Below are positions 40,658-62,448 of a DNA stretch of 64,000 bases, piece by piece. This DNA is from Flavobacterium degerlachei (GTDB lineage Bacteria; Bacteroidota; Bacteroidia; Flavobacteriales; Flavobacteriaceae). Position 1 is the stretch's first letter. The number at the start of each line of letters is the position of its first letter. The notes below the pieces were generated by a model, which saw nothing but the letters and a program-made list of their open reading frames with translations, made no database searches and had not been told where the DNA came from. The position numbers and the translations under genes were made by a program. The DNA is taken from assembly GCF_900106645.1 (NCBI RefSeq), contig NZ_FNMV01000004.1, positions 1 through 64,000 on the forward strand. Reading direction: 5' to 3'.

Positions 40658-40778
40658 GTAGTTTTTGTACCAACTATTTATTGATACTGACAAAATAGCA
40701 TTAAATTGCATCTGGATAAATTTTTGCGATAGCTTATTTCTAATCAAAAGAGCTAACCAAAATTCAAAATTGATACTA

Positions 40779-41531
40779 ATGGACAAACATTTTAAATTCA
40801 GCAATTCCGTAATTGGGCTGCCACTCTTCTTTGTATTGTTCCTGTGGTTTGTATATTGGTTAGAGATTCGATTTGGTTTTGATTTCGGTAAGAATGGAAT
40901 ATTACCCAGAACCTTTTCTGGATTGCAGGGAATTATTTTTAGTCCGTTTATACATTCAGATCTCAATCACCTTTATAATAATTCAATTCCTTTACTAGCA
41001 TTGTTGGCTGCATTGCAGTTTTTCTATGCAAAACAATCTTTTTCTGTAATAGGTTTTGGGATTATATTTTCGGGTTTACTGACATGGATAATCGGAAGGG
41101 AGAACTACCATATTGGTGCTAGTGGTTTAATCTATGTTCTGGTTAGTTTTATTTTTTTTAAAGGACTACTTACAAAATATTACCGTTTGATAGCGCTATC
41201 ATTAACGGTGATTATGTTATATGGAGGGATGCTCTGGTATGTTTTTCCAGAAGTAGATAATTCCATTTCTTGGGAAGGACATTTGGCAGGATTGATAACT
41301 GGTTTTGCTCTTTCATTTATTTATAAAACTCCGGAGTATAAAAAGGAACTAAAATACGATTGGGAGAAACCTGACTTTGATCCTATAGAAGATAAGTTTT
41401 TGCAACGCTTTGACGAAAATGGGAATTTTGTTAATCTGCCACCTATAGTTGAGGAGGAGGTAGAGCTGCCGTATTTTAATTCTAACGATGCCGTGGTTTA
41501 TACAATTATAGAAAAAAAGGAGGACGACTAG
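40779..41531 (+). CDS. Rhomboid family intramembrane serine protease
   Basis: From ATG 40779 (MDKHFKFSNSVIG) the product has 250 residues with six hydrophobic helices. The catalytic serine is in YHIGASGLIY (about residue 115) and the helix-6 histidine in WEGHLAGLITG. The helix-2 motif HSDLNHLYNN is intact. The C-terminus is long, soluble and acidic, probably cytosolic. A longer reading frame from 40665 would run through the hairpin-repeat flank and is unlikely. Confidence 0.9.
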   Translation: MDKHFKFSNSVIGLPLFFVLFLWFVYWLEIRFGFDFGKNGILPRTFSGLQGIIFSPFIHSDLNHLYNNSIPLLALLAALQFFYAKQSFSVIGFGIIFSGLLTWIIGRENYHIGASGLIYVLVSFIFFKGLLTKYYRLIALSLTVIMLYGGMLWYVFPEVDNSISWEGHLAGLITGFALSFIYKTPEYKKELKYDWEKPDFDPIEDKFLQRFDENGNFVNLPPIVEEEVELPYFNSNDAVVYTIIEKKEDD

Positions 41532-46100: not shown

Positions 46101-46297
46101 TTTGCACTGATGGAGTATTTTCCATCAAAATTAGTTTGAACACCATTTGATGTTCCTTTAACTTTCACATTTACCCCGGTTAGGGCTTGCCCCTCATTGT
46201 CCGAAACAGTACCGCTCACAGTTCTGTTTTGCGCAAATGTAATTTGCGTAATTAATGCTAGTACAAGCATTAAAATTTGATTAAACTTTGGTCTCAT
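43151..46297 (-). CDS. SusC/RagA family TonB-dependent transporter (system 1)
   Basis: A 1,048-residue outer-membrane channel with a signal peptide ending ITFAQ (about residue 23). A carboxypeptidase-regulatory-like domain follows (VSGTVSDNEGQALTGVNVKV), then the TonB-box-like segment DEVVIIAYG, the plug with IRGFSSISGSNTPLYVVDGV, and a barrel of about 800 residues ending in GINLNF. It would import a ligand delivered by the SusD partner, powered by TonB. The N-terminus differs from those of systems 2 and 3. Confidence 0.95.
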   Translation of the reverse strand: MRPKFNQILMLVLALITQITFAQNRTVSGTVSDNEGQALTGVNVKVKGTSNGVQTNFDGKYSISAKTGDVLVLSFIGLDTKTITVDNSNTLNVRMQSTAVAIDEVVIIAYGKAKKASYTGSATTIKSQDIENRAVTNVLSGIEGAVSGVQIQSGSGQPGSQPSVRIRGFSSISGSNTPLYVVDGVPFTGDINNINAADVASMTILKDAASTSLYGSKAANGVVMITTKKGTSSKDKFNFNMSTGLSTRSIPEYDRVDAFQYYPLTWEAIRNSRPMSTPALLATANAFASTRTPIDLVINPFNVPNASLFDANGQLNPAAQLLYPDDLDWGKQLERAGLRRNIDFSYQGKTERSDYFVSIGNLSEEASIQNSDFKRTTARLNVNTKLKEWFKTGANVATTFTDSNQAVDGVANTSSFNNPFRTIRYMGPIYPVLSHDATTGAVILDATGNPVYSALRGSGASNGRNVVYETLNNENKDKSLSFNGRTYLEVKFLKDLKFTTNFAFDNAHFNNNVFWNKLIGDGAPDGYASRTNTVTTGITFNQLLDYTKSVNNHNFNALVGHESFDYEYNYMFGSKRGQGVPNNNEFINYLTVSDLNSYTRNYATESYFSRVGYDYDEKYILSASVRRDGSSKFADANKWGNFWSVGAAWNLTRESFIEKQTWINELKLRASFGEVGNDSHTSYDGLNYYIGAPTFSLGLNNASEVGILTNDQGAPNLKWEKNTQKDIAIDYAFFGNRLRGSVEYYNRKTDGLIFNVPIPVSSGLDSKVENIGSMFNQGIEVSLDAMIVKTKEFSWNVNINASTIKNEITSLPQKEIINGTKKYAVGSSIYDYWLRTWYGVDPTDGYALYVVDPLLTTPTDTDSRTVNGVNVTINQNKALYEYHGTSLPDLFGSFTNTFKVGGFQMDVLMTYQLGGKIYDSNYAALMHSGNNYGSALHTDILDRWQKPGDITDVPVMNISRNTQNSAASNRWLVDSDYLSLRQVSLSYNLPKDLISKLQIDGAKFYVNGENLKLFAKRDGMDPQATFNGTTQNRFSPSRTISLGINLNF

Positions 46298-46345
46298 TGT
46301 TAAATATTTTCGATTAGTGCGGCAAATATCTTAAGTAAATGTTAA
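46298..46345 (-). promoter_or_regulatory. Conserved susC leader, copy 1
   Basis: On the minus strand TTAACA, 5 bases, TTAAGA, 2 bases, TTTG (46323-46345) is followed by 4 bases, ACTAAT and 15 bases to the ATG. The same spacing occurs at the other two susC genes. TTAAGA-nn-TTTG is a variant -7 box (GAnnTTTG). Confidence 0.65.
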
Positions 46346-46660
46346 TATTACTATAATGTTAATTGTTGTAATATTTAAATTATTTTCATATATGTGGCAG
46401 AGACGGATTTTGGCGGTAGTAATGTTTTTGGTTTTTAAGTTGTTGATTTTGTGATTGTTATTGAGGTTATTTTAGTGTTGTGATTTTAATTTTGAAATTT
46501 ATTTTGTTTTTTGAAATAGGAGAAATGGCAATTTTAATGTTAAAAATCGATAATTTTAACATCGTGGTCGAAAGTTGTTATAAAAAAATGAAGTTGAATT
46601 GTGAGTATTAAAAGTATTATGTTAAAATAGCGGTGTAATTGTTAGTATGTCGGTTAAAAA
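46346..46660. other. Gene-free spacer, GT-rich on the plus strand
   Basis: About 315 bases with no convincing gene. The plus strand is strongly T and G rich with few C. No further motif seen beyond the susC leader on its left. Confidence 0.55.
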
Positions 46661-46661
46661 A

Positions 46662-46705
46662 GTAAAAAAAAAGGATTGAACAGCATAGAAGTTGCTCAAT
46701 CCTTT
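46662..46705 (-). terminator. Terminator of rlmB
   Basis: The arms 46670-46679 and 46696-46705 (AAAGGATTGA) pair over 10 bases, and in the minus direction a run of T follows. It lies about 25 bases after the rlmB stop. Confidence 0.82.
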
Positions 46706-46729
46706 AAGAATATTGTGTGTTTTAGAGTG

Positions 46730-47464
46730 TTAGCTCCTTTGTCGTACGGCTTCGTATAAAAATGCGCCGCAGGCAACTGATACGTTTAGTGATCCTATTG
46801 ATCCAAACATAGGAAGTTTAGCTTTTTCATCAACAATTTTTAAAACCGATGGGTTTACCCCGCGGTCTTCTGATCCCATGATGATGGCTACGCCTTCTTT
46901 TAATTCGATATCATAAATATTTTTATCCGTTTTTTCAGTAGCAGCAACGGTTTTGATACCACTGGCTTGCAAAAGGAAAATGGCGTCTTTAATATGTTCT
47001 ACTTTACAGATAGGAATATTAAATACGGCTCCAGCTGACGTTTTTACTGTATCTCCATTTACGGGTGCAGAACCTGCTTTTTGAACTATAATTCCATTTA
47101 CACCAGTACATTCAGCGGTTCTGATTATAGCTCCAAAATTACGAGCATCTGAAATTTGATCTAAAACCAAAAACAATGGTTTCTTTCCGTTTTCTAATAC
47201 TGACTCAATCAAAGTTTCTAAATCAAAAAAGGAGATAGGGGAGATGGTCGCTACAGCACCTTGGTGGTTATTGGGTGTTAATCTGTTTAGTTTTTCAACA
47301 GGAACATAAGAGAAGTTAATATTACCACGCTTCATCACTTTCATTAAGTCTTTCATCAGTTCGCTACTCGCTTCCTTTTGAATATAGACTTTGTCTACTG
47401 TTGCGCCTGCTTGGATGGCTTCGATAATTGCTCTAATCCCAAATATTTGATGTTCTTTTTCCAT
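46730..47464 (-). CDS. rlmB: 23S rRNA (guanosine-2'-O)-methyltransferase RlmB
   Basis: A 244-residue SpoU-class methyltransferase with an N-terminal RNA-binding domain (about residues 1-75) and a trefoil-knot domain. Visible motifs are DARNFGAIIRTAECTG (motif 1, about residue 105), AIIMGSEDRGVN (motif 2) and GSIGSLNVSVACGAFLYEAV (motif 3). It is known to methylate G2251 (E. coli numbering). It lies between two SusC systems with its own terminator. Confidence 0.95.
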   Translation of the reverse strand: MEKEHQIFGIRAIIEAIQAGATVDKVYIQKEASSELMKDLMKVMKRGNINFSYVPVEKLNRLTPNNHQGAVATISPISFFDLETLIESVLENGKKPLFLVLDQISDARNFGAIIRTAECTGVNGIIVQKAGSAPVNGDTVKTSAGAVFNIPICKVEHIKDAIFLLQASGIKTVAATEKTDKNIYDIELKEGVAIIMGSEDRGVNPSVLKIVDEKAKLPMFGSIGSLNVSVACGAFLYEAVRQRS

Positions 47465-47475
47465 GGTGCAAATAT

Positions 47476-47510
47476 ATAAAAAAAACCACTCCGAATAAAC
47501 GAAGTGGTTT
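47476..47510 (-). terminator. Terminator of susC system 2
   Basis: The arms 47483-47490 and 47503-47510 (AAACCACT) form a short hairpin, and in the minus direction seven or more T follow. It lies about 25 bases after the last lipoprotein gene. Confidence 0.75.
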
Positions 47511-47532
47511 GAATAATCTTGATATTAAAATA

Positions 47533-48033
47533 TTAGTAATTGTCTTCTAGGAAACCTGTTCTTTTATGACCAGAAAAAATTAATATGTTTCCTGGGTCAT
47601 AACTGAATTCTCCCTTAAAATAGATACTATCAGTAACGTTTCCACCTTTAGAGTGTGCGGCGTTTTTCAAGATCTTTCCTTCAGTAATTGTAAAAGTAGA
47701 TCCCGGATCAAGTAAATTATCTTCGTCAGCTACACTAAAAGTTAAGTTGCTAGTATCTACTTTTAGTTTTCCTTTTAGCCACCAACCATCTTTATTGTCA
47801 TTTATGTACATGGTGTTGTTTCCATCATTTGTATCATAAGTTACATGGTGCGCATGCTGAACTAAAAGTCCTGAAGCATCGCTGATATCAATATACCATT
47901 CACCATTCATTTCGATTGAAGGTCTTTCCACTGTTGTATAATCATCATAACCGTTATTGTCACAAGAGCTTACTGTGGCTATCATAAAAACTCCTAAAAG
48001 TATTTTATTGATATTGCTTTTTAATATATTCAT
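47533..48033 (-). CDS. Lipoprotein of SusC/SusD system 2 (lipid-binding-hydrolase-like)
   Basis: The 166 residues start with a lipoprotein signal ending in SSCDNNGYDD (Cys at about residue 24). The remainder is a beta-rich, barrel-like domain: MNGEWYIDISD, YINDNKDGWWLKGKLKVD, then IYFKGEFSYDPGN. It resembles the small accessory lipoproteins called lipid-binding putative hydrolases that accompany some SusCD pairs. No catalytic residues can be named. It is the last of four genes and is 10 bases from its neighbour. Confidence 0.7.
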   Translation of the reverse strand: MNILKSNINKILLGVFMIATVSSCDNNGYDDYTTVERPSIEMNGEWYIDISDASGLLVQHAHHVTYDTNDGNNTMYINDNKDGWWLKGKLKVDTSNLTFSVADEDNLLDPGSTFTITEGKILKNAAHSKGGNVTDSIYFKGEFSYDPGNILIFSGHKRTGFLEDNY

Positions 48034-48043
48034 GTTGTTTTGA

Positions 48044-48790
48044 TTAAAGTTGTACTTGAGTTAAAGTAGATACAAAAACGTATGCAGTTCCAGTATTCCA
48101 GTCGCATGAAAGCACTAACGTTTTAGTTGTAGGATTTACAGTAAGTGATAAAAGATTTGCTGGAAAACCGAAGTAATCATTTGTCATTGGGTTTCCTGGG
48201 AAAGTGAATGTGTTTGTGCTGATATTTACAGCGTTTATTTTCCCACCAGGTGTGTTACTTCCTGCGATAGCTCTTCCTATAGAATACCATCCACCAAATG
48301 CATCAGATATTTCGTAAGTTCCATCAGTGTTTTTCCAGATATAGATATATTCCATGTTTCTGTATGCAGCACTAGGAGTAGAACCATTTCTAGCAACAGT
48401 TGAAGTGTATACACCTTCGATACTATTAACTAGATCTCCTGTTTTATAAACTATTACTTTTCTTGTAACTGTGTTTGCAAATCCATCTGCATTTATGGCT
48501 TTGTAAGTTTGAATGTACTCATCTTGAATAGAAGTATCCAATTTAGGCGATTTTCTGTTTACTCCAATTGCAGTGGAAGTGTATTCAACTGTAGCTCCAT
48601 TTACTGTTGCGGTAACACCAGGGTCATTGTAAGTTGAACCTAGCGGAACAAATACTGTTGAAGCTCCATTTAATGTAATCTCAGGAAAATAGGTTACCGT
48701 TGATCCAATAACAGGTTCTGTGCTGCAGGAAAGTATTGTCAATAATAACACCGCTAACGCTGCTATCTTTGTTGTTTTTAAGTATTTCAT
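48044..48790 (-). CDS. DUF5011-type Ig-like lipoprotein of system 2
   Basis: A 248-residue lipoprotein (signal ends LLTILSC, Cys at about residue 22). The N-terminal domain shows the Ig-like DUF5011 pattern, VFVPLGSTYNDPGVTATVNG, ending QTYKAINADGFANTVTRKVI. The second half is a separate beta-rich domain with a WYSIGRAIAGSN segment. Comparable proteins ride on the outer face of SusCD complexes. It follows the susD gene by 17 bases. Confidence 0.75.
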   Translation of the reverse strand: MKYLKTTKIAALAVLLLTILSCSTEPVIGSTVTYFPEITLNGASTVFVPLGSTYNDPGVTATVNGATVEYTSTAIGVNRKSPKLDTSIQDEYIQTYKAINADGFANTVTRKVIVYKTGDLVNSIEGVYTSTVARNGSTPSAAYRNMEYIYIWKNTDGTYEISDAFGGWYSIGRAIAGSNTPGGKINAVNISTNTFTFPGNPMTNDYFGFPANLLSLTVNPTTKTLVLSCDWNTGTAYVFVSTLTQVQL

Positions 48791-48807
48791 ATACGTATTT
48801 TTTTATA

Positions 48808-50283
48808 TTAATTTTTTTGATCCCACCACACTTTTTGCGTGATTGATGTTCTTTGAGTAATATTTGTGTTTCTATCAATTTCGTTTTGTGGATAGAATAA
48901 AATACTTGGAACACTGTTAGAAGTTAATATAGAGGTACGAGAAGGGATTCTGTTTCCTGCTGCGTAATCTTGTGTTCCGAATGGTACAACTTCAGGAAAT
49001 TTAGTTCTTGTAGTTTCGATGTACGCCTCGATGTTATTAACATTAGCAAGTGCTGCCCACTTTTGAATCATTACTTGTCTTACAGCTTGCTCAGTAGCAA
49101 GCCCAGTGATGAACTCATATACTGCACCTGTAGCAGTTAGTGCAGTAGCACTTGCAGTAGGTAGGCCATAAGTTGAAAAAGAACTAGCAACACCTAAATC
49201 ATACTTCGCTTTTGCGCCTGCTTGTGCAGAATAGCGGATTAATGCCTCTGCTTGCAAGAAATTGCTCTCAGCTACTGTTATTAAGTAGACTGGAGTTTGT
49301 GCAGTAACATTTGGTCTAGCATAGCTTGGGGCAGTGTTATTAAAAGCTGCTCCGTTCCCTTGGTCTAGTGATGCATAAGTTCCAGTTGATGAAGCTCTAT
49401 ATACTGCATTTCTTCTCGGGTCACTGTTTTGTTCGTAAAACTGCATTAATGTATTACTTGCAACGTGGTTGATGTCACCAAGACCTGGAGATGATGATAA
49501 ATTCACCTCGAAAAATGGATTACGTTGTGAAATTTGTGTACCAAAATTTGCAAATTTTGCATCAGCTGTTACAAAGTTGTTTTCGGCTAATAAAGCTCTA
49601 ACTGCTGCTGGATTAGCTAAAGATGTATACGCCATACGCATATAAATCTTTAATTTAAGAGTGTTAGCAAATTTAAGCCAGTTTGTCATGTCTCCTTGGT
49701 AGATAACATCTTGTGTTCCAAAAGCAGATGGAACAGGATTTGCATTGTAGTTCGCAACTGCGGTATTGATTGTATTGATTAAATCAGTATAGATTTCATC
49801 TCCAGGTGTAACTTTAGGGTTGATGTTTGTAACACCAGCTAATGCTTCAGTATAAGGAACGTCACCGAACACATCTACTAACACTTGGTAGGTGTATGAT
49901 TGAAGAAGTTTAGCGATCAAAACTTTTCCTGTGTTTCCTTGTAATTCTGACTCAGTAATCACAAACTGTAAATCATTTAAACATCCTGAGTAAAGTTCAT
50001 CCCACGCTCTGTTTCCAAAAGTAGTAGGAAGATTGTATTCGTCAATAGCATCGTATTGACCAGCACTTGGTGCTTGAGTGTGATACTGGGCATAAAAACC
50101 TCCCATGTTTGCTAACTCTCCACCAGTCATTGCTATCAGAGATGCTTCTGCAGATGCAAGAGCTAAGTCTGGTGTGATTGCATCGGGAGTGTTAGGGTTT
50201 GTATTCACATCTAAATCTTGTTCGCAAGAGGTTAAAGCTCCAAACGAAAAGATTATTAGTAATATTTTAGATATATTTTTCAT
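48808..50283 (-). CDS. SusD/RagB-like outer-membrane lipoprotein (system 2)
   Basis: The 491-residue lipoprotein has signal MKNISKILLIIFSFGALTS then Cys-20, followed by EQDLDVNTNPNTPDA, a form typical of the SusD-like-2 subgroup. Later landmarks are VDVFGDVPYTEAL, AESNFLQAEALIRYSAQAGA, and the C-terminal FYPQNEIDRNTN. It forms the lid of the SusC barrel of system 2. Its susC gene ends 12 bases upstream. Confidence 0.92.
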   Translation of the reverse strand: MKNISKILLIIFSFGALTSCEQDLDVNTNPNTPDAITPDLALASAEASLIAMTGGELANMGGFYAQYHTQAPSAGQYDAIDEYNLPTTFGNRAWDELYSGCLNDLQFVITESELQGNTGKVLIAKLLQSYTYQVLVDVFGDVPYTEALAGVTNINPKVTPGDEIYTDLINTINTAVANYNANPVPSAFGTQDVIYQGDMTNWLKFANTLKLKIYMRMAYTSLANPAAVRALLAENNFVTADAKFANFGTQISQRNPFFEVNLSSSPGLGDINHVASNTLMQFYEQNSDPRRNAVYRASSTGTYASLDQGNGAAFNNTAPSYARPNVTAQTPVYLITVAESNFLQAEALIRYSAQAGAKAKYDLGVASSFSTYGLPTASATALTATGAVYEFITGLATEQAVRQVMIQKWAALANVNNIEAYIETTRTKFPEVVPFGTQDYAAGNRIPSRTSILTSNSVPSILFYPQNEIDRNTNITQRTSITQKVWWDQKN

Positions 50284-50295
50284 ATTGTTTCTTTA

Positions 50296-53200
50296 TTAAA
50301 AGTTTGCTTTTACACTAAAACCGATACTTCTAGTTGAAGGGTTAGCACTAAATTCACCAAATTGGCCACTAATATCTGTACCAAATGTTGAAGTTTCTGG
50401 ATCGATGTATTGGTTGCTACTAGGAGTCCATAAGAATAAATTTCTTCCTACTACTGAAAAACCAAGTGATTGTAGTGGAGAAGATCCTAATAATTTTTTT
50501 GGAAGTTGGTATCCAATTACAACTTCTCTTAATTTTACAAAAGATTTGTCAATTACATTAGCTCTATCTAGAGCGGTTGCTCTGTAGTAATCATCTTGAT
50601 GTTCAATATCTACAGGCGTAGTATTAGGAGAATACGAAACTGTTCCGTCAGCAGCTGTTGCTTGAGTTACAGATCCAGGTACCAGGAATGGTTGTCTGTT
50701 GTTCTCGTAAGTAGTAGTAATCGAGTTACCAGTAAATCTTGTGATATCAGCTGTTCTAGAATACATTAAACCACCTTGACGGATATCAAATGAAAAATCT
50801 AAAGTTATATTTTTATAGCTTAAAGAGTTTCCAATACCCATTGTATAATCATATTGAGTATCTCCATAAACTTCTTTGTTCGGAGAAGTAATCGGTATTC
50901 CATTTGCATCGACTACAATGTTTCCGTTGGGATCAGTCAAAGCTACGTTACCCTGAAGTAGTCCTATTGGTGATCCTTGTTGCGCTATAAACGCTGTAGT
51001 GCTCAATCCACCTAAATTAAGTTGACCTAATCTAGGATCTAACTTCTCTAAGATAGAGTTGTTTTTTGCGTAGTTTACAGTTGTTGACCATCCAAAACTA
51101 TTGTTTTTTGGTTGGAAAAAGTTAAAAGTAACTAACCCCTCAAAACCTTTGTTAGAAATTGTTCCAACGTTAGCCGTTTGCGAAGTGTAACCAGTAGTTG
51201 CTGCAAGTGGCAATGAGATAATCTGATTAACAACTTTTGAGTCGTAGTAAGATAAATCTATAGAAAGGAAATTTTTGAAAAAAGAAGCTTCAATACCAAA
51301 TTCAAATTCTTTTCTTCTTTCTGGTTTTAAATCTGGATTTGCAGCTCTATTACCTACTTCATATCCGTTTACTCCGTTGAAAGGGTATGTTAAGCTTCCA
51401 AAACCTAGACCTACGTCTCCTTTTACAAATACTGGCAATACTGCGTATGGATCTGTATCAACTCCTGTTTCACCGTAGTTAGCTCTTAATTTACCAAAAT
51501 TTACAACATTCTTGATTTCTGGAAAAGTATCTGTGAAAGCCCAACTCGCATTGATTCCTCCGTATAATACTGATCGATTTCCTTCAGGTAAAGTTGAATA
51601 CCAGTCATTACGTAAAGTTCCAGTTAAAAACAATTGGTTTTTAAATGATAAAGATGTGCTGTTGTATACTCCGTAAAGTTTTCTCTCAGATCTAGAAGAA
51701 GATGCAGTAGCATTTTCTGTCGAATTGTCAAATGAATGAAACCCAGCAATATCTTGACTTCCAACACTTCCAGAAATTGAACTACCTGTTCTTTGATTCA
51801 TGTTGAATCCAAAAGAAGATTGTAATTCTAAATCTTTTGAAAGTTCGAAGTTTAGATTATATAAAAGCTCATGATTAATCTGTTTTGTAACAGACTTAGA
51901 TTCTGCATACGAACCTGGTTGTTCCGTAGAAGAACCATCATTTGGGCTTCCAGGTAGAGCATCTACTCGTTCTTCCCAAAGAGCTAAACTCTCTGTAGAT
52001 GAATCTAAACCAAAACGGTATACAAAACTTGACCATTTGTTGATTTCAGCATTTACTTCAATCGATCCGTATATTCTTTCTTTTGCAAATTTTGATCCAT
52101 TTTCATTTAATGTAAAGTAAGGATTCGTTACGCCGTAAGGAGTATAGTAGTTTGATACGTTGTTAAATGGATTAGTGTAGTCTTTAAATTCAGTGATTGG
52201 AATATCAGTCGGAATTTGCATTAAGTTATTCATAACTGTTAATCCTTGTCCTGTAGCTACAGCGCTTCCGCCTGTATTAACATAGTTTAACGATCCTGAA
52301 ATAGTTACGTTCTTTACTTTTGAGCTTCCAGATAAACCTAATGTGTTTCTTTCAAATTGATCAGCATCAGTAGGTATAATTCCGTCTTGTTGCGAATTCG
52401 AATAAGACAATCTTACTGACGAATCTTGAGATCCTCCTGAGATAGATAAAGTGTTTAATTGACTTACTCCAGTTTCGAAAAAGTTTTCAAGTTGATCTTT
52501 TTGGAAAGAGTAAGGTTTAATTTTTTGAGAATTGTCTACAACATTACCCCATGTTCTAATTTCACCATCAAATTTTGGTCCCCAAGATCCATTTTCTCCT
52601 AGGAAATGTTGTCCATCCCAACCTTGACCAAATTGATCTTGGTATTTTGGTGTTCTTAAGATTTCACTAAAATTAGTTGCGTTTGAAAAACTTACAGCTA
52701 ACTTACCTGTCTTTCCTTTTTTTGTAGTGATAAGAATTACACCACTTGCTGCTCTAGATCCGTAAAGTGCTGTTGCAGCTGCTCCTTTAAGGATAGACAT
52801 TGTTTCAATATCTTCTGGATTTATATCTCCAGACCCACGACCAAAGTCATAACCGCCATTCAGGCTGCTTGAAAAACTTGATCCATTGTTTATCGGAATT
52901 CCATCGACAACGTATAGAGGTTGGTTGTTTCCAGTCAAACTACTAAATCCTCTAATAATTACTCCTGAAGAAGCTCCAGGATCAGTAGAAGCGCTTGAAA
53001 TGGTTACACCAGCTACTTTTCCTTTTAATGCATCAGCCACATTAGTCTGTGAAGATTTATTTAGCTCTTCTGAATTAATAGTAGTTGCTGAGTATCCAAG
53101 AGATTTTTTTTCTCTTTTAATACCTAATGCAGTTACTACAACTCCTTCAAGTTCTACAGCAGTACCTATTAAACGAACGTTAATAGATGTTGATGTAGCT

Positions 53201-53451
53201 TTTACTTCTTGAGATTTCATCCCAATATAGCTAAAAATTAAAATTTGACTTGGGCTAGCTTTTATTGCAAATTTCCCGTCAAAATCAGTTTGTGTTCCAA
53301 AGTTAGTTCCTTTAACTAATACACTTACACCTGGTATCGGCATTCCCGTATTGTCAGAAACAACTCCTGTTACAGCTCTCTCTTGCGCAAAAGTTAGTTG
53401 CGCCATAAGTACTATTAATAGTACTAAGATTCCATTGAACTTTAGTTTCAT
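50296..53451 (-). CDS. SusC/RagA family TonB-dependent transporter (system 2)
   Basis: A 1,051-residue transporter with signal peptide ending LTFAQ, CarboxypepD_reg domain (TGVVSDNTGMPIPGVSVLVK), then GVVVTALGIKREKKSLGYS (TonB-box region), plug with IRGFSSLTGNNQPLYVVDGI, and a long barrel ending in VKANF. Its first 120 residues are nearly identical to those of the system 3 SusC, but the barrels differ. Heads a four-gene operon. Confidence 0.95.
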   Translation of the reverse strand: MKLKFNGILVLLIVLMAQLTFAQERAVTGVVSDNTGMPIPGVSVLVKGTNFGTQTDFDGKFAIKASPSQILIFSYIGMKSQEVKATSTSINVRLIGTAVELEGVVVTALGIKREKKSLGYSATTINSEELNKSSQTNVADALKGKVAGVTISSASTDPGASSGVIIRGFSSLTGNNQPLYVVDGIPINNGSSFSSSLNGGYDFGRGSGDINPEDIETMSILKGAAATALYGSRAASGVILITTKKGKTGKLAVSFSNATNFSEILRTPKYQDQFGQGWDGQHFLGENGSWGPKFDGEIRTWGNVVDNSQKIKPYSFQKDQLENFFETGVSQLNTLSISGGSQDSSVRLSYSNSQQDGIIPTDADQFERNTLGLSGSSKVKNVTISGSLNYVNTGGSAVATGQGLTVMNNLMQIPTDIPITEFKDYTNPFNNVSNYYTPYGVTNPYFTLNENGSKFAKERIYGSIEVNAEINKWSSFVYRFGLDSSTESLALWEERVDALPGSPNDGSSTEQPGSYAESKSVTKQINHELLYNLNFELSKDLELQSSFGFNMNQRTGSSISGSVGSQDIAGFHSFDNSTENATASSSRSERKLYGVYNSTSLSFKNQLFLTGTLRNDWYSTLPEGNRSVLYGGINASWAFTDTFPEIKNVVNFGKLRANYGETGVDTDPYAVLPVFVKGDVGLGFGSLTYPFNGVNGYEVGNRAANPDLKPERRKEFEFGIEASFFKNFLSIDLSYYDSKVVNQIISLPLAATTGYTSQTANVGTISNKGFEGLVTFNFFQPKNNSFGWSTTVNYAKNNSILEKLDPRLGQLNLGGLSTTAFIAQQGSPIGLLQGNVALTDPNGNIVVDANGIPITSPNKEVYGDTQYDYTMGIGNSLSYKNITLDFSFDIRQGGLMYSRTADITRFTGNSITTTYENNRQPFLVPGSVTQATAADGTVSYSPNTTPVDIEHQDDYYRATALDRANVIDKSFVKLREVVIGYQLPKKLLGSSPLQSLGFSVVGRNLFLWTPSSNQYIDPETSTFGTDISGQFGEFSANPSTRSIGFSVKANF

Positions 53452-53499
53452 TTTTAAATATTTTGAATTAGTGAAACAAAATTCTTAATTAATTGTTAA
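53452..53499 (-). promoter_or_regulatory. Conserved susC leader, copy 2
   Basis: The minus strand has TTAACA-5-TTAAGA-2-TTTG at 53477-53499, 4 bases, ACTAAT, and 15 bases to the ATG at 53451. Similarity to the system 3 leader continues upstream to about 53575, including AATTTAACATTTTAACACAA. Confidence 0.7.
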
Positions 53500-54795
53500 G
53501 TATCCTAATTAAAGAAACCCTATTTTTAACATAATATAAAATTTAACATTTTAACACAATGGAAAGTATATGTTATGAAACAACCTCTTTTTTTGCCAAT
53601 TTAGCCTTAAAAGAAATTTTTTATAAGATAAAACCTGCTTATTTATACAGCTATTAAGTATTGGTTATGAGTGTGTTATTTGGAAAATTGTGATTTGAAG
53701 AGTGGGGTAACTGTTGAAGTTTTATTTTGCTTTTAGAGTGACTTGTTATCGTGATTTTGGGTTGTTTAAAAAAAATCAAGTTGTTGGACTAGTTGCTGTG
53801 TATTTGTCGTGTTTTTTGCTTTAGTGAAAAGTAGGAGGTTGTGATTTATAGAGGAAATATGATTTCTAGTTTAATTTTTGTCTAGTTGTAGGAATTAGCA
53901 TTGCTGATTTAAGGTAGGAGGAATGATAATTATGTAGCAGTAAAACGGAAAGCTTTTATCATTTTGTTTCTTAGAAGGTTTGTTTTTTGGTCGCATCTAA
54001 CTGTGAGTTAAGTTAGCTAATAAGGTTTGTTTTGAGATGTAATTAATTTTTTCCGTTATGGTGTAATTCATATAACTGAAATGATATGTTTTTTACTATT
54101 AATCGATTGTTGTTTGTCTTGTCAATCAATAGTGTTTTTGTTATGGTGATTTGGCGATGTAATAGGATAATCTCAATTTTATGTAAGGCATCTCTGTAAC
54201 CCTTGATGTAAAAAAATAATTAGCCAGATCAGTGGGGTGAACTTTTTTAAGGTTGTGTTATTAGAAATAATTGTGCTTTTAGAATGGATGTGAGAAATGT
54301 GGTATTTGGTAGTGAGTTTTTAGAGTATGTGTAGTTTGTTTTACACTATTAATATTTAGTACTTTTTTTTATGTGTTATATTTGAGGTTAGTATTTATGT
54401 CGTTATTTTTTGTTACAAGTATTAAATTTGACTTTTATGTTTGTTAAAGTAGGTTTGTGACGACTATTTTTTAAGGATTTTAGATATAAGATAAGGCTTC
54501 ACATTAACAGTATGTCATTTTTCGGATATCTAGAAACGGAATAGAGAGATGGTTACTCTTGTTGGTTGATGATTATTCGGACTTAATTGCTTTGGCTATA
54601 AGAATATTGTTGTGAGCTGTTTATCTTAGTGCGGGTTTTATGAATTGAATGTTAGTTGTGTTTTGAATGTTGAATTTGGTCGTCATATTGATTAGTCGTT
54701 TAACTTTGGGAAGTATGGTAATCTGAAGCATTCTATTTTTTATTTTACAGCTAAAAAATATAAATACAAGAATAATTATTTTATTTGTGTTTTCT
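53500..54795. other. Long gene-free spacer between susC systems 2 and 3
   Basis: About 1.3 kb with no credible gene on either strand. The plus strand is very rich in T and G and has almost no runs of C. A short open stretch near its right end overlaps the next terminator and is not supported. No tRNA, hairpin array or repeat was seen in it. Confidence 0.55.
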
Positions 54796-54799
54796 GTAA

Positions 54800-54828
54800 A
54801 TAAAAAGGCTGCCAAAATTGGCAGCCTT
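54800..54828 (-). terminator. Terminator of susC system 3
   Basis: The arms 54805-54814 and 54819-54828 (AAGGCTGCCA) form a perfect 10-bp hairpin with a four-base loop. In the minus direction a short T-run follows. It lies 27 bases after the susD stop. Confidence 0.85.
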
Positions 54829-54855
54829 GATAATTTAATAAGATAACTAATAGTT

Positions 54856-56292
54856 CTAGTTTACATCCCAAAATATTTTAGTAGTTTGTTCGTCTCCTCC
54901 TATTGCTGCTGCAGCAGAATTATAGTTGACACTATTTAGATTTTGTTCGCTAACAGGATATGTGTATCTTGTTGGAACAGGAAGTTCAGAAATAGCAGCT
55001 ACGTTAAAGCCTGGTATGTCATAAGTTCTCCAAGCTGTCCAAGCTTCGTAACCTCTGTTGTACATCGCTAACCAAAGTTGGTTACCAATTTTTACTTTCC
55101 ATGTACCAGGAGCAGTTGCATAGTTTACTTTAGGGTTTAATAAATAAGCAGCTACATTAGGAGTTTTCCAATAATCAAATGAAGCTGTAATACCTGCATT
55201 ATAGAAAGCTGCTGCTTGAGCAGGTGTTCCTGAGATAGAGCGTTCAGCTGCATCAGCAAGATAAAAAGAAACTTCTGCAAAATCCATTAAGGATGCTGGG
55301 TTTGTTTGCTCTATTACACGGCTACCTACATGAGTGTATGAAGTAAAACTGTTGTTTTCACCGTAAGGTCCACCTTCATAAGTATTAGTTCCTAGGTTTT
55401 GGTCAAAGTAAAAAGCTCTTCTTGGGTCTTCAAGATCATTCATGAAATCTACGATTGTGTTAGCAATAACAAAATCAGATCTTCCAGATTGTACTAAATC
55501 AACCCAAACAGGATTTGTGTTAGGTGTTGCGCTTCCGTAAGATATAGTAGCGTTATCAGCATTTGAAGTAAAAACACCACCGCTAATAGCAGTTTTAATA
55601 GCAGTTTCAGCTACAGTTTTCATTGATGCAACGTCAACTACTCTGATACCCATTCTTAATTTTAATGAGTTACCAAACTTTTTCCAAGCAACAGTGTTAC
55701 CACTATAAATTTTGTCTGCTTCACCAAAACCATCATCGGTTAAATTTGGAATTGCAGCATTCAAGCGTACAAGTAAATCACCGTAAATAGTTTTTGCATC
55801 ATCATATACAGGAAGAAGATATTTATTTGGGTTCAATGTTTGAGTATATGGAACATCTCCATAAGTTTCAACAAGATTTGCCCAAGCATAAACGCTTAAT
55901 ATTTCAATTTGAGCATTTCTTGTTTTTTTAGTTGCTTCTGACATTTCAACATCCGCATCAGTGTAAGCTTTTGCAGTAGATAAGTCAAATAAAACATCTC
56001 TGTAGATTTCAGACCAATGTGCGTTGGTAATGTTACGAGTGTTTAAGTCATAATTAGCTTCATCCACATAAGTTGTTTCCGTCCAATGTTGAGCTAACAT
56101 CCTGAAGACATTAGTGTTTACATTGGTGCTCGTCATTTGGTCAAATAAGCTCTTTGAAGCTGAATTGAATAAAAAAGACGCTTCAACCTCTTTAGGATTC
56201 TTCGGGTCGTTATTTAAACCTTCGTACTGGTCATTAGATTGACACGATACTAATGCTAGAATAGATAACGCTGTTAATATTATTTTTTTCAT
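54856..56292 (-). CDS. SusD/RagB-like outer-membrane lipoprotein (system 3)
   Basis: The 478 residues start with lipoprotein signal MKKIILTALSILALVS then Cys-17 (CQSNDQYEGLNNDPKNPKE). The rest fits the SusD-like-2 subgroup, with VETYGDVPYTQTL, WKKFGNSLKLRMGIRVVD, and a C-terminal YNRGYEAWTAWRTYDIPGF. It is the partner of the SusC gene 11 bases upstream. Substrate unknown. Confidence 0.92.
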   Translation of the reverse strand: MKKIILTALSILALVSCQSNDQYEGLNNDPKNPKEVEASFLFNSASKSLFDQMTSTNVNTNVFRMLAQHWTETTYVDEANYDLNTRNITNAHWSEIYRDVLFDLSTAKAYTDADVEMSEATKKTRNAQIEILSVYAWANLVETYGDVPYTQTLNPNKYLLPVYDDAKTIYGDLLVRLNAAIPNLTDDGFGEADKIYSGNTVAWKKFGNSLKLRMGIRVVDVASMKTVAETAIKTAISGGVFTSNADNATISYGSATPNTNPVWVDLVQSGRSDFVIANTIVDFMNDLEDPRRAFYFDQNLGTNTYEGGPYGENNSFTSYTHVGSRVIEQTNPASLMDFAEVSFYLADAAERSISGTPAQAAAFYNAGITASFDYWKTPNVAAYLLNPKVNYATAPGTWKVKIGNQLWLAMYNRGYEAWTAWRTYDIPGFNVAAISELPVPTRYTYPVSEQNLNSVNYNSAAAAIGGDEQTTKIFWDVN

Positions 56293-56303
56293 AATTTTTT
56301 TTT

Positions 56304-59300
56304 TTAAAACTGTAATTTAAGACTTGCTCCGATTTCTCTTATTGAAGGGAAGGCTCCAGATTGATATCCTTGTACGTTTCCAGAACTTAAACCAGCTTCT
56401 GGATCTGCATATGGTACACTTTTATCTATAATCCATAAGTTTCTTCCAATTAAAGATAATGCAACATTTGTGAAAGGTAAAGTGCTTAATGTTTTCTCTG
56501 TAAAGTTGTAAGTTAAACTTGCTTCACGTAATTTGATATAACCAGCATCGTAAACATGTAATTTGTTAGGAGCTCTAGCGTAACCCCATGCATTTGCATA
56601 AATATTAGCATTAGCTCTAACTTGATTTGGAGTTCCATCAGGAGCAACTCCAGGCATAATAACACCACCGCTGTTTGCTGCATAGTTACCAGGTGTTCCA
56701 ACTACAACATCTCTTATTGGATTTCCTAGCTCGTTAGTTCCTGCAGAGAAGTCATACATCCCTGTTGCGTAACCATACCATGTATCAAGAGAGAATACGT
56801 CTCCACCTTTTTGCATGTCAATTAAGAAAGCTAAATTGAAATTTTTGTATGTAAAACTATTGTTAAGTCCTGCTTTCCAGTCTGGATTGATATCCCCAAT
56901 TACAGAGTTGCTTGTAGAAGTTCTTTGGTATGTACCAATTCTGCTTGAGCTTCCTGTTTGGTTAACAATTGGTTGTCCATTGTCAGCATAAATATAATCA
57001 CTACCTCTGATTGTTCCGTAAGGTTGTCCAGGAGTTGCGTTGATTGATACACCACCTTGTAATGATGCTAATTGTAAGTTATCAATACCATTAAGCAATT
57101 CAACTACTAAACTTTTGTTTTGAGACCAGTTTAGATTTAAATCCCATCTGAAATCAGTTGTCTTAAAAGGTGTAGCATTAAATGCAACTTCTATTCCTTT
57201 ATTTTCGATAGTTCCTGCGTTTAACGTCGCAAATGAATATCCTGTTGATGTAGATAATGGAATATCTGTAATTTGGTTGATATTTTGATTGTTGTAGTAA
57301 GATAAATCAAATCCAATACGTCTGTTCAAGAAAGACATTTCTAAACCAAGTTCATAACTTTCTTGTCTCTCTGGTAAAAGATCTAAGTTAGCAAGAGTAC
57401 CATTATTAGATGCCATAGGAGTTCCGTTAAATGGAGTTCCAACAGCATATGTGTTAAAAACTTTATACGGGTCTGTAGCACTACCTACCTCTGCATAATT
57501 TGCTCTTACTTTTCCAAATGACAACCAAGGAGCGTCAATTAGTGAAGAGAAAACTAAACTTCCAGAAATAGAGTAGTATCCAAATCTATTGTTCGCTTTT
57601 GGTAAAGTAGAAGAACGGTCAGTTCTGTATGAACCTTCTAAGTATGCGAATGAATCATAACCTAAACTAGCTCTGATGTACTCACCATCAACCATACTAC
57701 TGTATTGATTTTCGATAGGAGCAAGAATAGGGCTTACGCTATTTGAAAGTGAATATAATCTTGGGATACTAATTCCACCATTTGTAGCTGCAAAAACGCT
57801 ATTTTTAGTGTTGTTTCTTAAGCTAAATCCAACATTACCTTCTAGATTTAATTTTTCAGTTAAATCTTTATTGAAATTTAACATTGCGTCGTAGTTGTAT
57901 TCAGCAACATTGTTATTGAATCTTGAGTAAGATGATACATCAGCACTTCCAACGTTGATTCTTTCTTCCTGAATTTCACTGTAAGTGTCAAATGAGAATC
58001 TTACGGTTGCAGATAACCAATCGTTTATTTTGTTATCTAAAGCAACATTACCAAAATATCTTGATCTTGTATCTGTCTCAAAATTCTCGTAAAATGTCCA
58101 GTATGGATTGTCTGAATAGATTGGACTTAAATTGTCAGGACCATTAGGATTCCATGTGATGTTTTGTCCTGTAAGTAGATAAGCATCTTTTTGCGCGCCG
58201 TAATCAACATTCATTTGATTCCATTGTCTAAATTGCTGCATGATGTTACCAGATGAGTAACCTGTACCGTTTCTACCTTTACCATCATTTTTCACAAAAT
58301 TGAAATAAGCAGAAGCTGTCAATTTGTTTGATAGATCTTGAGATCCAGAGAAAGATATAGTATTTCTTTTTATATTACTGTTAGGTAAATTTCCTTCTTG
58401 TGCTAGGTTAGTGAAACCTAATCTGAATGAACTTGTATCAGTACCTCCATCTAAAGCGATAGAGTTTACTACAGTACTTCCCGTTCCCCAAACAGAGTTT
58501 GGATTGTTTTTTCCAGCTACCCAAGGAGTCGCTTTTTGGTAAGTGTCAGGTAATTGAGGATAAAGTGAGTTCCATTGGTAAACCATTAAACTTGGGTCAA
58601 ATGCAGCACCATATGACGCATCTTCAGTAAAAGGTGTAGTTAAATCAGGAATTCCATCACCGTTTATATCAGCTTCATTGAAATACGCATCTTCATTAGG
58701 ACCATAGTAAGGACCGTAACCAGCTCCGTATTTGTTTTGATATTTAGGTAATGTTTCTGAATCTGCATTTCCTAAAGTAAGACTAGAATTGATTGTTATA
58801 CCAAGACCTTTTCTTTTCTTTCCTTTTTTGGTAACGATCATTACAACTCCATTAGAGGCACGAGAACCGTAAAGTGCAGTTGCAGCAGCTCCTTTTAGGA
58901 CGTTGATAGATGCGATATCGTCAGGATTAATGTCAGATGCAGCATTTCCGTAGTCATAACCACCTCTACCTGCTTTTTGTCCCTCTGTATTTGAATTACC
59001 GTTGTCAATTGGTACACCATCAACAACAAATAATGCTTGGTTGTTTCCAGCTATCGAGTTATTACCTCTAATAACAACCTGAGTTGACCCACCTAAATTT
59101 CCAGATGTTTTAATGTCTAAACCTGCAACTTTACCAGAAAGTGAGTTTACAAAATTAGAACTTTTTACATTAGAAACGGCGTCACCTTTAACTTCTTGAG
59201 TTGCGTAACCTAAGGATTTTTTTTCTCTTTTAATCCCTAATGCAGTAACAACAACGCCTTCTAGTTCTACTGCTGTTCCTAGCAATTTAACATTTACTGT

Positions 59301-59564
59301 CGATGATGTTGCTTTTACCTCTTGGGTTTTCATCCCAATGTAGCTAAAAATTAAAGTTTGACTTGGAGTAGCTTTAATAGCATATTTCCCGTCAAAATCA
59401 GTTTGTGCTCCTGAGTTAGTTCCTTTAATCAATACACTTACACCTGGTATAGGCATTCCTGCATTGTCAGAAACAACACCCGTAACAGTTCTCTCTTGCG
59501 CAAAAGTTAGTTGCGCCATAAGTACTATTAATAGTACTAAGATTCCATTGAACTTTAGTTTCAT
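56304..59564 (-). CDS. SusC/RagA family TonB-dependent transporter (system 3)
   Basis: A 1,086-residue transporter with signal LTFAQ, CarboxypepD_reg domain, the GVVVTALGIKREKKSLGYA region shared with system 2, plug IRGNNSIAGNNQALFVVDGV, and a long barrel ending in ASLKLQF. An acidic, calcium-site-like loop INGDGIPDL lies near residue 298. The close match to system 2 stops around residue 120, so the two genes share the front but not the barrel. Confidence 0.95.
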   Translation of the reverse strand: MKLKFNGILVLLIVLMAQLTFAQERTVTGVVSDNAGMPIPGVSVLIKGTNSGAQTDFDGKYAIKATPSQTLIFSYIGMKTQEVKATSSTVNVKLLGTAVELEGVVVTALGIKREKKSLGYATQEVKGDAVSNVKSSNFVNSLSGKVAGLDIKTSGNLGGSTQVVIRGNNSIAGNNQALFVVDGVPIDNGNSNTEGQKAGRGGYDYGNAASDINPDDIASINVLKGAAATALYGSRASNGVVMIVTKKGKKRKGLGITINSSLTLGNADSETLPKYQNKYGAGYGPYYGPNEDAYFNEADINGDGIPDLTTPFTEDASYGAAFDPSLMVYQWNSLYPQLPDTYQKATPWVAGKNNPNSVWGTGSTVVNSIALDGGTDTSSFRLGFTNLAQEGNLPNSNIKRNTISFSGSQDLSNKLTASAYFNFVKNDGKGRNGTGYSSGNIMQQFRQWNQMNVDYGAQKDAYLLTGQNITWNPNGPDNLSPIYSDNPYWTFYENFETDTRSRYFGNVALDNKINDWLSATVRFSFDTYSEIQEERINVGSADVSSYSRFNNNVAEYNYDAMLNFNKDLTEKLNLEGNVGFSLRNNTKNSVFAATNGGISIPRLYSLSNSVSPILAPIENQYSSMVDGEYIRASLGYDSFAYLEGSYRTDRSSTLPKANNRFGYYSISGSLVFSSLIDAPWLSFGKVRANYAEVGSATDPYKVFNTYAVGTPFNGTPMASNNGTLANLDLLPERQESYELGLEMSFLNRRIGFDLSYYNNQNINQITDIPLSTSTGYSFATLNAGTIENKGIEVAFNATPFKTTDFRWDLNLNWSQNKSLVVELLNGIDNLQLASLQGGVSINATPGQPYGTIRGSDYIYADNGQPIVNQTGSSSRIGTYQRTSTSNSVIGDINPDWKAGLNNSFTYKNFNLAFLIDMQKGGDVFSLDTWYGYATGMYDFSAGTNELGNPIRDVVVGTPGNYAANSGGVIMPGVAPDGTPNQVRANANIYANAWGYARAPNKLHVYDAGYIKLREASLTYNFTEKTLSTLPFTNVALSLIGRNLWIIDKSVPYADPEAGLSSGNVQGYQSGAFPSIREIGASLKLQF

Positions 59565-59612
59565 TTTTTAATATTTTGAATTAGTTACACAAAACTCTTA
59601 ATAATTTGTTAA
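59565..59612 (-). promoter_or_regulatory. Conserved susC leader, copy 3
   Basis: The minus strand has TTAACA-5-TTAAGA-2-TTTG at 59590-59612, 4 bases, ACTAAT, and 15 bases to the ATG at 59564. It keeps exactly the spacing of the other two leaders and shares its further upstream sequence with copy 2. Confidence 0.7.
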
Positions 59613-60173
59613 GAAACCTAATTAATGAAAGTGTATTTTTAACATTAAATGAAATTTAACATTTTAACACAATGTAAAATTTATGTTATAAAAGCGTGTT
59701 GTTTAAACATTGTAGTCTGGTAAAAATAGAATAAAGTAAGATTAATCTTTGTAATTACGTAAAATGTTAGTGACTGTTTGTGAGTTGGTTAGTTGTTAAT
59801 TTTTTTTTTAATTAATATTTATCGGTGTGGCTGGGTGTTGCTCAGCTGTTGATTTTTTCTAATGTAGGACTGCAAGGTATTAGTGGTGGTGAGTTTGTTA
59901 ATTTTAATTATGGTTGTAGTGATATTTTTATTCTGGTATTGTGATTTTTTGTTTTTTTTAATTATTAGTATATGATTTTAAAGAAAATGAAGGAGGGGTA
60001 GTTTGTTTAAATAGGTTTTTCTGCTAAGTGTGTATGATAAAAAAAATATTATGGGAATTTAGGGAAAATGTCCATTAGTAGTATTATGTTCTGTTTTCTG
60101 TTTTGAATTATATGGTTGATTCAGCTTAGGTGATGTTTAGAGATTTTTTGTTTTTGATGTTTATTATTTTTGT
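59613..60173. other. Gene-free spacer, GT-rich on the plus strand
   Basis: About 560 bases without a credible gene. The first 90 or so resemble the region upstream of the system 2 leader. The rest is T and G rich on the plus strand. No obvious terminator for the BamA-like gene was found. Confidence 0.5.
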
Positions 60174-61979: not shown

Positions 61980-62010
61980 TTTGTAGAGTAAAAATTAATT
62001 CATACATTTG
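61980..62010 (+). promoter_or_regulatory. Promoter of the str operon
   Basis: TTTG (61980-61983), 19 bases, TACATTTG (62003-62010) is a near-perfect Bacteroidota promoter. It lies about 55 bases before the rpsL ATG, giving a leader of about 50 bases that contains a small CCCG/CGGG hairpin (62015-62029). Confidence 0.85.
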
Positions 62011-62064
62011 CAACCCCGTAAAAAGCGGGAATTAAATATACATAATAAATTTTTAGTATTAATT

Positions 62065-62448
62065 ATGCCAACAATTCAACAATTAGTAAGAACAGGAAGA
62101 ACTCAGATAACTAAGAAGAGTAAATCGGTTGCTTTAGATTCTTGTCCTCAAAGAAGAGGGGTTTGTACGCGTGTTTACACTACAACACCAAAAAAACCAA
62201 ACTCTGCAATGCGTAAAGTAGCGCGTGTACGTTTGACAAATGGTAATGAAGTAAATGCCTACATCCCTGGTGAAGGACACAATTTACAAGAGCACTCGAT
62301 AGTATTAGTTAGGGGTGGAAGGGTAAAAGATTTACCAGGAGTTAGATATCACATCGTTCGTGGTGCACTTGATACGTCAGGAGTAGCAGGAAGAACGCAA
62401 AGGAGATCTAAGTATGGTGCTAAACGCCCAAAAGAAGCAAAAAAGTAA
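62065..62448 (+). CDS. rpsL: 30S ribosomal protein S12
   Basis: A 127-residue ribosomal protein at the decoding site. From ATG 62065 ([12 protein letters not shown]) the key sequences [13 protein letters not shown] and [15 protein letters not shown] keep both lysines that, when changed, give streptomycin resistance (E. coli positions 43 and 88), so the gene encodes the ordinary sensitive form. A longer reading frame starting inside the leader is unlikely. It leads the str operon. Confidence 0.98.

Follow-up and report, generated by a model that had tools for sequence, protein, structure and literature searches.

The 64,000-nucleotide stretch of Flavobacterium degerlachei analysed here (contig NZ_FNMV01000004.1, positions 1 to 64,000; hereafter the window) contains an array of three SusCD-type uptake systems whose susC genes all begin with the same short cassette, made up of a promoter-like leader, a 5' untranslated region (UTR) and two hairpins within the signal-peptide code. 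Comparison of sequences across the Flavobacteriaceae reveals the anatomy of this cassette, its conservation and its location between rpsL and rlmB. The reading to which we lean slightly is that of an autonomous conserved cassette of the rpsL-rlmB susCD array, in which a sigma-A-type promoter would need an activator and the hairpins would keep the start open or bind a regulator. The -33 element, the hairpins and the linkage to the locus go beyond the earlier note made on this DNA.

The leader and its chromosomal place

The earlier note had described three susC genes with identical, strictly spaced leaders, and these were confirmed base for base, distances included (59612-59562, 53499-53449 and 46345-46295, all on the minus strand; S3, S2 and S1 after systems 3, 2 and 1). 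The exact pattern with its ATG has three matches in the whole 3.86-Mb genome, each 5' of a susC gene, and none in the reversed-pattern control. Up to three mismatches over TTAACA-n5-TTAAGA-nn-TTTG-n4-ACTAAT return the same three sites alone (control 0), and the looser TTAASA-n5-TTAWGA-nn-TTTG with one mismatch returns four, one of them extra (control 4). Fourteen susC genes of this genome lie above the TIGR04056 cut-off and three carry the leader; under a leave-one-out matrix these score 26.4-30.2 bits and the remaining eleven at most 0 bits. Over -129..+363, S2 and S3 share 86% DNA identity as close paralogues, so that the independent comparison inside the window is S1 against S2/S3 and the weight rests on the family-wide data. 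Their shared block (53089-53580 and 59202-59693; 86% against 54% for the whole genes) looks like a local homogenised tract with its end near the plug domain.

The family form of the leader was revealed only through relatives found by protein. Matches to SusC in 116 of 149 Flavobacteriaceae genomes gave 69 upstream regions, and 52 of the 68 regions outside the own genus were judged leader-bearing by eye and then aligned. The resulting alignment (A1) holds 77 eye-chosen, leader-bearing rows, omits 16 of the 69 family rows and leaves related genera in the matrix; owing to the eye-chosen rows, scoring was leave-one-out in the own genome and leave-one-genome-out in the anchored regions, where scores reach 41 bits. 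Forty short upstream stretches were taken from listed protein matches whose alignment began at or near residue 1, and five rows of alignment A2 with doubtful starts or leaders (G004_1, G009_1, G043_1, G074_2 and L165) were kept. With up to two mismatches, the leader occurs in 43 of 101 Flavobacterium genomes, at 58 sites versus 10 for the reversed pattern. Among 42 motif-found loci of the genus and family (one site doubled), 38 match the strict expression at their centre, and in 37 of these the start of a susC frame lies at a distance of 26-51 nt from the motif's first base (no frame was found in L183). At least 15 bits are scored by 71 of the 79 named relatives found by protein, and F. johnsoniae strain CI04 (L083) carries the cassette. 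In a class-wide profile scan, scores above 30 bits occur, among the matches listed, in seven genomes, all of the own family and with one to three matches each; G460, of another family, reaches 26.5 bits (E 1.3e-5), and matches near E 0.001-0.01 were taken as chance. The earlier note would have given up the motif if it were absent from other susC genes and from relatives: relatives do carry the leader, and this part of its proposal stands, but the other eleven susC genes of the genome lack it. As a general susC signal the exact motif was rejected, being present on 3 of 14 susC genes here and, in the exact Flavobacterium wording, in 2 of 299 family genomes.

The survey anchored on rpsL matched 73 of 80 genomes, 72 besides the own; 67 regions extend more than 6 kb upstream and five shorter ones (G015, G016, G047, G062 and G064) were left out. 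A co-oriented susC lies within 9 kb upstream of rpsL in 62 of the 67. With a matrix computed without the genome concerned, the leader reaches at least 15 bits at 55 of these 62 loci and on 62 of all 76 susC genes there, and other sites score as high in three of the 72 anchored regions. Five regions have no susC within 9 kb (G022, G023, G030, G035 and G059), although G030 has a leader susC 15 kb off. In L424 (G059) and L436 (G022), the locus is apparently empty: about 2 kb separate rpsL from rlmB, and this interval contains no susC. Seen from the motif side, the flanks are present in 18 of 19 stretches around leader genes; the nineteenth (G034) stops 2.4 kb short of rpsL, and the leader susC was found in between from the rpsL side. 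The distance to rpsL is at most 15 kb for 25 of the 29 leader rows that were found by protein and whose genome has a placed rpsL, and 69 of 73 named loci with a leader show a flank gene. Leaderless relatives lie elsewhere in 17 of 19 cases, those of G020 and L238 (G057) being at the locus; 18 of these loci were the author's choice and the nineteenth, L238, came from the rpsL-anchored survey. On this comparison the cassette belongs mainly to one chromosomal place, with exceptions. The earlier note had suggested common control of three uptake systems; the sharing is explained first by their residence in one rpsL-rlmB susCD array, rather than by recruitment of three separate systems into a regulon.

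In F. psychrophilum, the SusCD pair THC0290_2100/2101 is up in freshwater and as cells enter stationary phase, and THC0290_2103, two tags away, is a rhomboid gene (PMC9723704, excerpt). Strain JIP02/86 has a single susCD pair (PMC10132118, excerpt). Given the single pair and the nearby rhomboid gene, THC0290_2100/2101 is probably this same locus.

The promoter block and the predicted message start

The family consensus of the leader reads TTG (-35..-33), TTAAC (-27..-23), TTA (-16..-14), [GC]A (-12, -11) and TTTG (-8..-5); the -33 element is TTAGG in most Flavobacterium copies and ATAG in S1. In the 77 aligned leaders, G-33 is found in 71, A-11 in 75, T-8 in 76, T-7 in 75, T-6 in 70 and G-5 in 72. 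The 52 leaders of other genera keep the three TTG bases in 52, 50 and 50 rows, TTAA in 51-52 and A-11 in 52. The sigma-A -7 box of F. psychrophilum occupies -12..-5 (PMC9723704, excerpt). As the earlier note had supposed, GAnnTTTG takes the place of this box, with G or C at -12 kept across the family, and by the published numbering ACTAAT falls at the expected transcription start, downstream of TTTG.

Position -12 is where the leaders depart from the sigma-A promoter. The 52 leaders of other genera have G in 40, C in 11 and T in one; the 62 rpsL-anchored leaders have G in 51, C in 10 and T in one, which makes 61 with G or C. Since the matrix itself had scored this base, the leaders were re-scored without it (G or C in 60 of 61) and without -12..-9 (60 of 62). 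The rpsL upstreams of the 67 regions provide an internal control: TAnnTTTG is present in 67, and the rightmost NAnnTTTG has T-12 in 65 (reversed control, 22). T-12 is likewise nearly invariant in the published promoters of F. johnsoniae (PMC6847099, excerpt). Of the sigma-A form TAHHTTTG, the leaders therefore keep A-11 and the TTTG at -8..-5 and lack the T at -12. Because G and C are both accepted there, the pattern is read as avoidance of T, pointing to a weak box that would need help, rather than as a base-specific contact.

As in the sigma-A (sigma-ABfr) promoter (-33 TTTG, -7 TAnnTTTG), the presumed start of the cassette lies about 5 nt after TTTG; at -35..-33 the leaders of other genera have TTG, but S2/S3 have TTAGG and S1 has ATAG, and G or C replaces T at -12. 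TTAACA, which the earlier note took as a possible regulator or alternative-sigma site, is at most a candidate for one. Regulators of the OmpR/PhoB type bind direct-repeat sites, for instance the TTAACA-n5 repeats of Bacillus subtilis PhoP. The Flavobacterium TTAACA-n5-TTAAGA has the same 11-bp step, but its halves are unlike in most other genera (TTAAC versus TTATGA) and the pair sits between -33 and -7. The exact TTAASA-n5-TTAAGA-nn-TTTG-n3..8-ACTAAY is present in 11 of 148 genera (control 0), with unlike half-sites in most genera. A spacer palindrome was set aside, its halves, judged by eye, not being kept as inverted repeats. The strongly conserved TTAAC and TTA of the cassette stand against AT-rich motifs near -28 and -18 in the F. 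johnsoniae spacer (PMC6847099, excerpt). The SM4-SM6 motifs of F. psychrophilum are also Flavobacterium promoters outside the sigma-A consensus; set by eye against their description in the text, not the logos, of PMC9723704 (excerpt), the cassette is not TAnnTTGY and has neither a CGT box nor a sigma-54 -24/-12.

Several neighbouring or related sequences may be added. An AT element, AAATTTTA, is conserved at -54..-47 in the rpsL-anchored family set and could be UP-like or an activator site. The leader of a second susC class, whose signal peptide is MRSKFKW (L163, L171, L174 and L175), is related: it reads TTAAGA-n5-TTAAGA-nn-TTTG, and ACTAAY follows 7 nt past TTTG. The promoter differs in off-locus relatives of system 1 (L169 and L170, and also L156 and L173): two of them have TAAGTTGC, which is SM5-like (TAnnTTGY), and the other two TAAGTTCG.

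The message is predicted to start at or near the conserved ACTAATTCAAA, from which a 5' UTR of about 20-26 nt leads to the ATG. CTAATTCAAA follows TTTG after 6-8 nt in 57 of 62 anchored leaders and after 5 nt in the window. CTAAYTCAAA is nearly invariant in the UTR, and the start codon is unpaired in the folds of S1, S2 and S3. Genome-wide, ACTAAYTCAAA has 18 sites (reversed control 6), of which eleven are in open reading frames (ORFs) of at least 80 codons and seven outside long ORFs, two of the latter being the S2 and S3 leaders; by inspection, the remaining genome sites offered no convincing candidate for a small RNA (sRNA) partner.

Hairpins in the signal-peptide code and the bodies behind them

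The signal peptide is conserved across the cassette, and its code forms stems at coding nt 27-33/38-44 and 49-54/62-67 (codons 9-23). In hairpins of the window, S1 pairs TTAATGCT with AGCATTAA, and S2 and S3 pair AGTACTA with TAGTACT. Rare codons are fixed here in the anchored set: ACG in 51 of 58 Thr at codon 10 (7% of Thr codons in bodies), GCG in 49 of 52 Ala at codon 14 (7% in bodies) and GTG in 55 of 57 Val at codon 17 (10%); these codons build the two stems. Over 131 distinct starts, 91.4% of cells are paired against 85.1 for shuffles of the 3' letters (0 of 500 as high), and sliding the stem partners by 1-3 columns leaves 24-50% paired. Double changes are seen in 8 of the 13 stem pairs (183 cells, the rows being related and the cells not independent events), and one-sided changes from U-A to U-G occur in 28 sequences at one stem pair. 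The combination of ACG at codon 10 with C in the middle of codon 14 is present in 66 rows, ACA with U in nine (7 Val, 2 Met), ACA with C in one and ACG with U in none; the ACA-GTG form comes from five different non-Flavobacterium genera (G021, G036, G045, G063 and G077). The mean minimum free energy is -15.7 versus -6.1 for synonymous shuffles; at p 0.05, 59 of 62 leader genes are more stable and 64 of 69 Flavobacterium and window rows lie beyond their synonymous shuffles, in comparison with 3 of 39 other window genes and 2 of 81 internal susC windows. RNAalifold found hairpin 1 unprompted. Rfam gave no match at gathering score over 41-62 kb and none up to E 1 over 59300-59800. As comparison of these sequences shows, the two covarying hairpins in codons 9-23 make up a conserved cis RNA element. 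The start of the system 2 susD (48808-50283, minus strand) is likewise unusually structured (p 0.007 versus synonymous shuffles).

The SusC bodies tell a different story from the leader. In a FastTree phylogeny of the residues after 120 (95 rows; rows of fewer than 700 residues, L073, L179 and L218, were dropped), which has several long branches, the leader label, set at 10 bits, needs 21 changes, of which starred branches force 17. The mean for shuffled labels is 30.4; the label is thus clustered, yet far from a single origin. Past residue 110, the body at the G313 locus shares 69-91% identity with genes of G360, G374 and G393, which lie off the locus, with another signal peptide and no leader. 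To judge from these sequences, SusC bodies are decoupled from the leader. Among S2/S3 and seven tandem pairs from other Flavobacterium genomes, likeness is 0.44-0.64 over the upstream 250 nt and 0.51-0.58 over codons 121-300. Concerted evolution of tandem pairs was rejected: leader identity within genomes (0.81-0.94) is in no clear excess over that between genomes (0.75-0.90), so a local homogenised block is recognised in S2/S3 only. The signs of a breakpoint near residue 110 are no more than suggestive, given that the N-terminus diverges faster in leaderless pairs as well.

Possible roles of the cassette and its neighbourhood

Several scenarios may explain a cassette of this kind. In the activator-dependent one favoured here, sigma-A RNA polymerase would read the promoter, which, with T-12 replaced by G or C, would be weak alone and need an activator on the TTAAC and TTA spacer elements; the units of the array would be switched jointly, probably in response to nutrient or peptide status. 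The message would begin at or near ACTAAT and translation about 21 nt later in an open stretch. The UTR and start codon would be single-stranded and the hairpins would lock the downstream code locally, thus preventing fold-back, so that the cassette would work irrespective of the body downstream. Initiation would be alike whichever SusC body follows, or the hairpins would bind a regulator; the start site, this regulator and the hairpin function are putative.

A number of observations weigh against this scenario. Seven of the 62 anchored loci have no leader above threshold (G057, G046 with 7.5, G069, G033 with 7.8, G020, G052 and G065), four of the 29 leader rows are on another contig than rpsL (G013, G027, G047 and G057, the G047 copy by a contig end), and four of the six named loci below 10 bits are also at the locus, with leaders that look degenerate. 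A different sigma factor could recognise the G or C at -12, and a Pfam scan of 20 window proteins recognised no linked regulator gene. Hairpin 2 was not found by RNAalifold unaided, single-sequence folds are weak against dinucleotide shuffles (z -1.2 to -2.1), and the excess of G-U cells over A-C cells is modest (114 to 53). A weaker hairpin excess in leaderless susC (16 of 40) and structured starts in 6 of 23 other TonB-receptor starts of the own genome imply that such structure may be more widespread among susC genes.

One alternative, rather doubtful in our judgement, takes the hairpins as a post-transcriptional site for an sRNA or an RNA-binding protein, comparable to FopS and RbpB in Bacteroides, behind an ordinary, strong promoter. 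Covarying hairpins just within the gene and the nearly invariant CTAAYTCAAA in the UTR would suit such a site, as would the fact that susC start regions of B. thetaiotaomicron are targets of sRNAs and RbpB (PMC11697453, excerpt). Nevertheless, the locus has no Rfam match, and inspection of the ACTAAYTCAAA sites of the genome revealed no obvious sRNA partner. The FopS/GibS sRNA and RbpB systems share with the cassette a control point near the susC start codon (PMC11697453, excerpt), but no homologous sRNA was found, and the cassette element lies in cis, within the signal-peptide code.

It is unlikely that a dedicated alternative sigma factor, of the extracytoplasmic function (ECF) type, reads [GC]AnnTTTG together with a TTAAC/TTG upstream element and needs no activator. 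The avoidance of T-12 in 61 of 62 leaders, which holds without scoring that column, and the one to three matches above 30 bits per genome, among the matches listed, in seven family genomes would fit a small regulon of such a factor, and F. psychrophilum has seven ECF sigma factors (PMC9723704, excerpt). Yet TTTG at -8..-5, A-11 and, in other genera, the -33 TTG are kept at sigma-A spacing, -12 takes G and C alike, contrary to a base-specific contact, and the block is unlike the SM4, SM5 and SM6 motifs as worded in the same excerpt. No sigma gene was recognised among the scanned neighbours; the earlier note had likewise seen no adjacent sigma, anti-sigma or hybrid two-component gene, and the Pfam scan of the 20 window proteins agrees. 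The mgsA/rarA-type AAA protein has MgsA_C as its best Pfam match, with Sigma54_activat secondary.

Improbable, too, is a reading of the dyads in codons 9-23 as DNA operators for a dimeric repressor: they are perfect in S2 and S3, and two-fold symmetry would look compensatory as well, but the letters vary freely with pairing kept, and the excess of G-U over A-C cells and the one-sided U-A to U-G changes weigh against it. Plain descent, in which tandem duplicates carry a leader that has not yet diverged and has no special function, accords with the 86% identical 5' block of S2/S3 and with three genes in one array, but is already disfavoured and scarcely credible given a block kept in dozens of genera when tandem-pair upstreams are only 0.44-0.64 alike, the leave-one-genome-out scores, the covariation and the fixed rare codons.

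A wider proposal is offered tentatively, and with more doubt than belief: the rpsL-rlmB interval would be a fixed uptake expression site, in which the cassette and the N-terminal domain have been kept for the age of the family and SusC bodies swapped at about codon 110-120, and the twin hairpin would be a new class of cis RNA in signal-sequence code. If this were true, the cell could alter the substrate of its main importer without altering its control. In Bacteroidota, SusCD importers are main routes of nutrient entry, and what is known of their regulation comes mostly from glycan systems that have regulators close by. In this family, the majority of the genera sampled have an importer array in a single position and with a single start cassette, and the window showed no recognisable local regulator. 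The cassette is a test case for what replaces T-12 in a Bacteroidota promoter, for how the start region is kept open in messages that lack a Shine-Dalgarno sequence and for whether transporter bodies swap behind a fixed promoter; it is short, strictly conserved and testable in F. johnsoniae. Its single elements (a Bacteroidota promoter, a SusCD array and a cis RNA) are of known kinds; among open-licence papers, no report of a locus-bound cassette, of this leader or of the hairpins was found.

The features of the window are collected in Table 1. System 2 has SusC, SusD and two further surface-protein homologues (Ig-like and PF12888) side by side, as in BT2261-2264, the SusCD-type oligopeptide importer of B. 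thetaiotaomicron, whose gene order is presumed here; this likeness is one of genes alone, and system 1 is nearer to 8aa4-type SusC and RagA.

Table 1. Features of the susCD array and its flanks in the window
Feature	Position	Strand	Remark
S3 -33-like element TTAGG (-36..-32)	59617..59621	-	4 nt 5' of TTAACA
S3 TTAACA (-27..-22) and TTAAGA (-16..-11)	59596..59612	-	
S3 -7 box GAGTTTTG (-12..-5)	59590..59597	-	G at -12
S3 predicted 5' UTR, putative +1 at A of ACTAAT	59565..59585	-	sequence; -7 box position from PMC9723704 (excerpt)
S3 hairpin 1, codons 9-15	59521..59538	-	
S3 hairpin 2, codons 17-23	59498..59516	-	
S2 -33-like element TTAGG	53504..53508	-	
S2 TTAACA and TTAAGA	53483..53499	-	
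S2 -7 box GAATTTTG	53477..53484	-	
S2 predicted 5' UTR	53452..53472	-	
S2 hairpin 1	53408..53425	-	
S2 hairpin 2	53385..53403	-	
S1 -33 position ATAGT	46350..46354	-	T-35 and G-33 retained
S1 TTAACA and TTAAGA	46329..46345	-	
S1 -7 box GATATTTG	46323..46330	-	
S1 predicted 5' UTR	46298..46318	-	
S1 hairpin 1, 8 bp	46252..46273	-	letters unlike S2/S3
S1 hairpin 2	46232..46248	-	
rpsL (ribosomal S12), divergent locus flank	62008..62448	+	
susC, system 3, BT_2264-like	56304..59564	-	360 bits to BT_2264, nearest relative
susD, system 3	54856..56292	-	PF12771
susC, system 2, BT_2264-like	50296..53451	-	841 bits to 5fq6_B
susD, system 2, BT_2263-like	48808..50283	-	best matches BT_2263 and 5fq4
Ig-like surface protein, system 2	48044..48790	-	PF16403; PF16404 (BT_2262-like) under its cut-off
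Lipid-binding protein, system 2	47533..48033	-	PF12888
rlmB, locus flank, here between systems 1 and 2	46730..47464	-	
susC, system 1	43151..46297	-	best solved relatives 8aa4 SusC and RagA
susD, system 1	41645..43141	-	PF07980/PF14322
Rhomboid gene, far flank	40665-41531	+	
mgsA/rarA-type AAA gene, far flank	39178-40455	-	

In the divergent flank, rpsG accompanies rpsL. The interval of 1.4 kb between susD of system 3 and susC of system 2 (53452-54855) has no reading frame of more than 64 amino acids starting within it. Between rpsL and the first susC lies a conserved gene of 569 amino acids (60174-61883, minus strand), which is matched in most rpsL-anchored regions. Pfam and NCBIfam gave no match for its protein, whose C-terminal SIRGF-type motif we take to be reminiscent of Omp85/TamA proteins.

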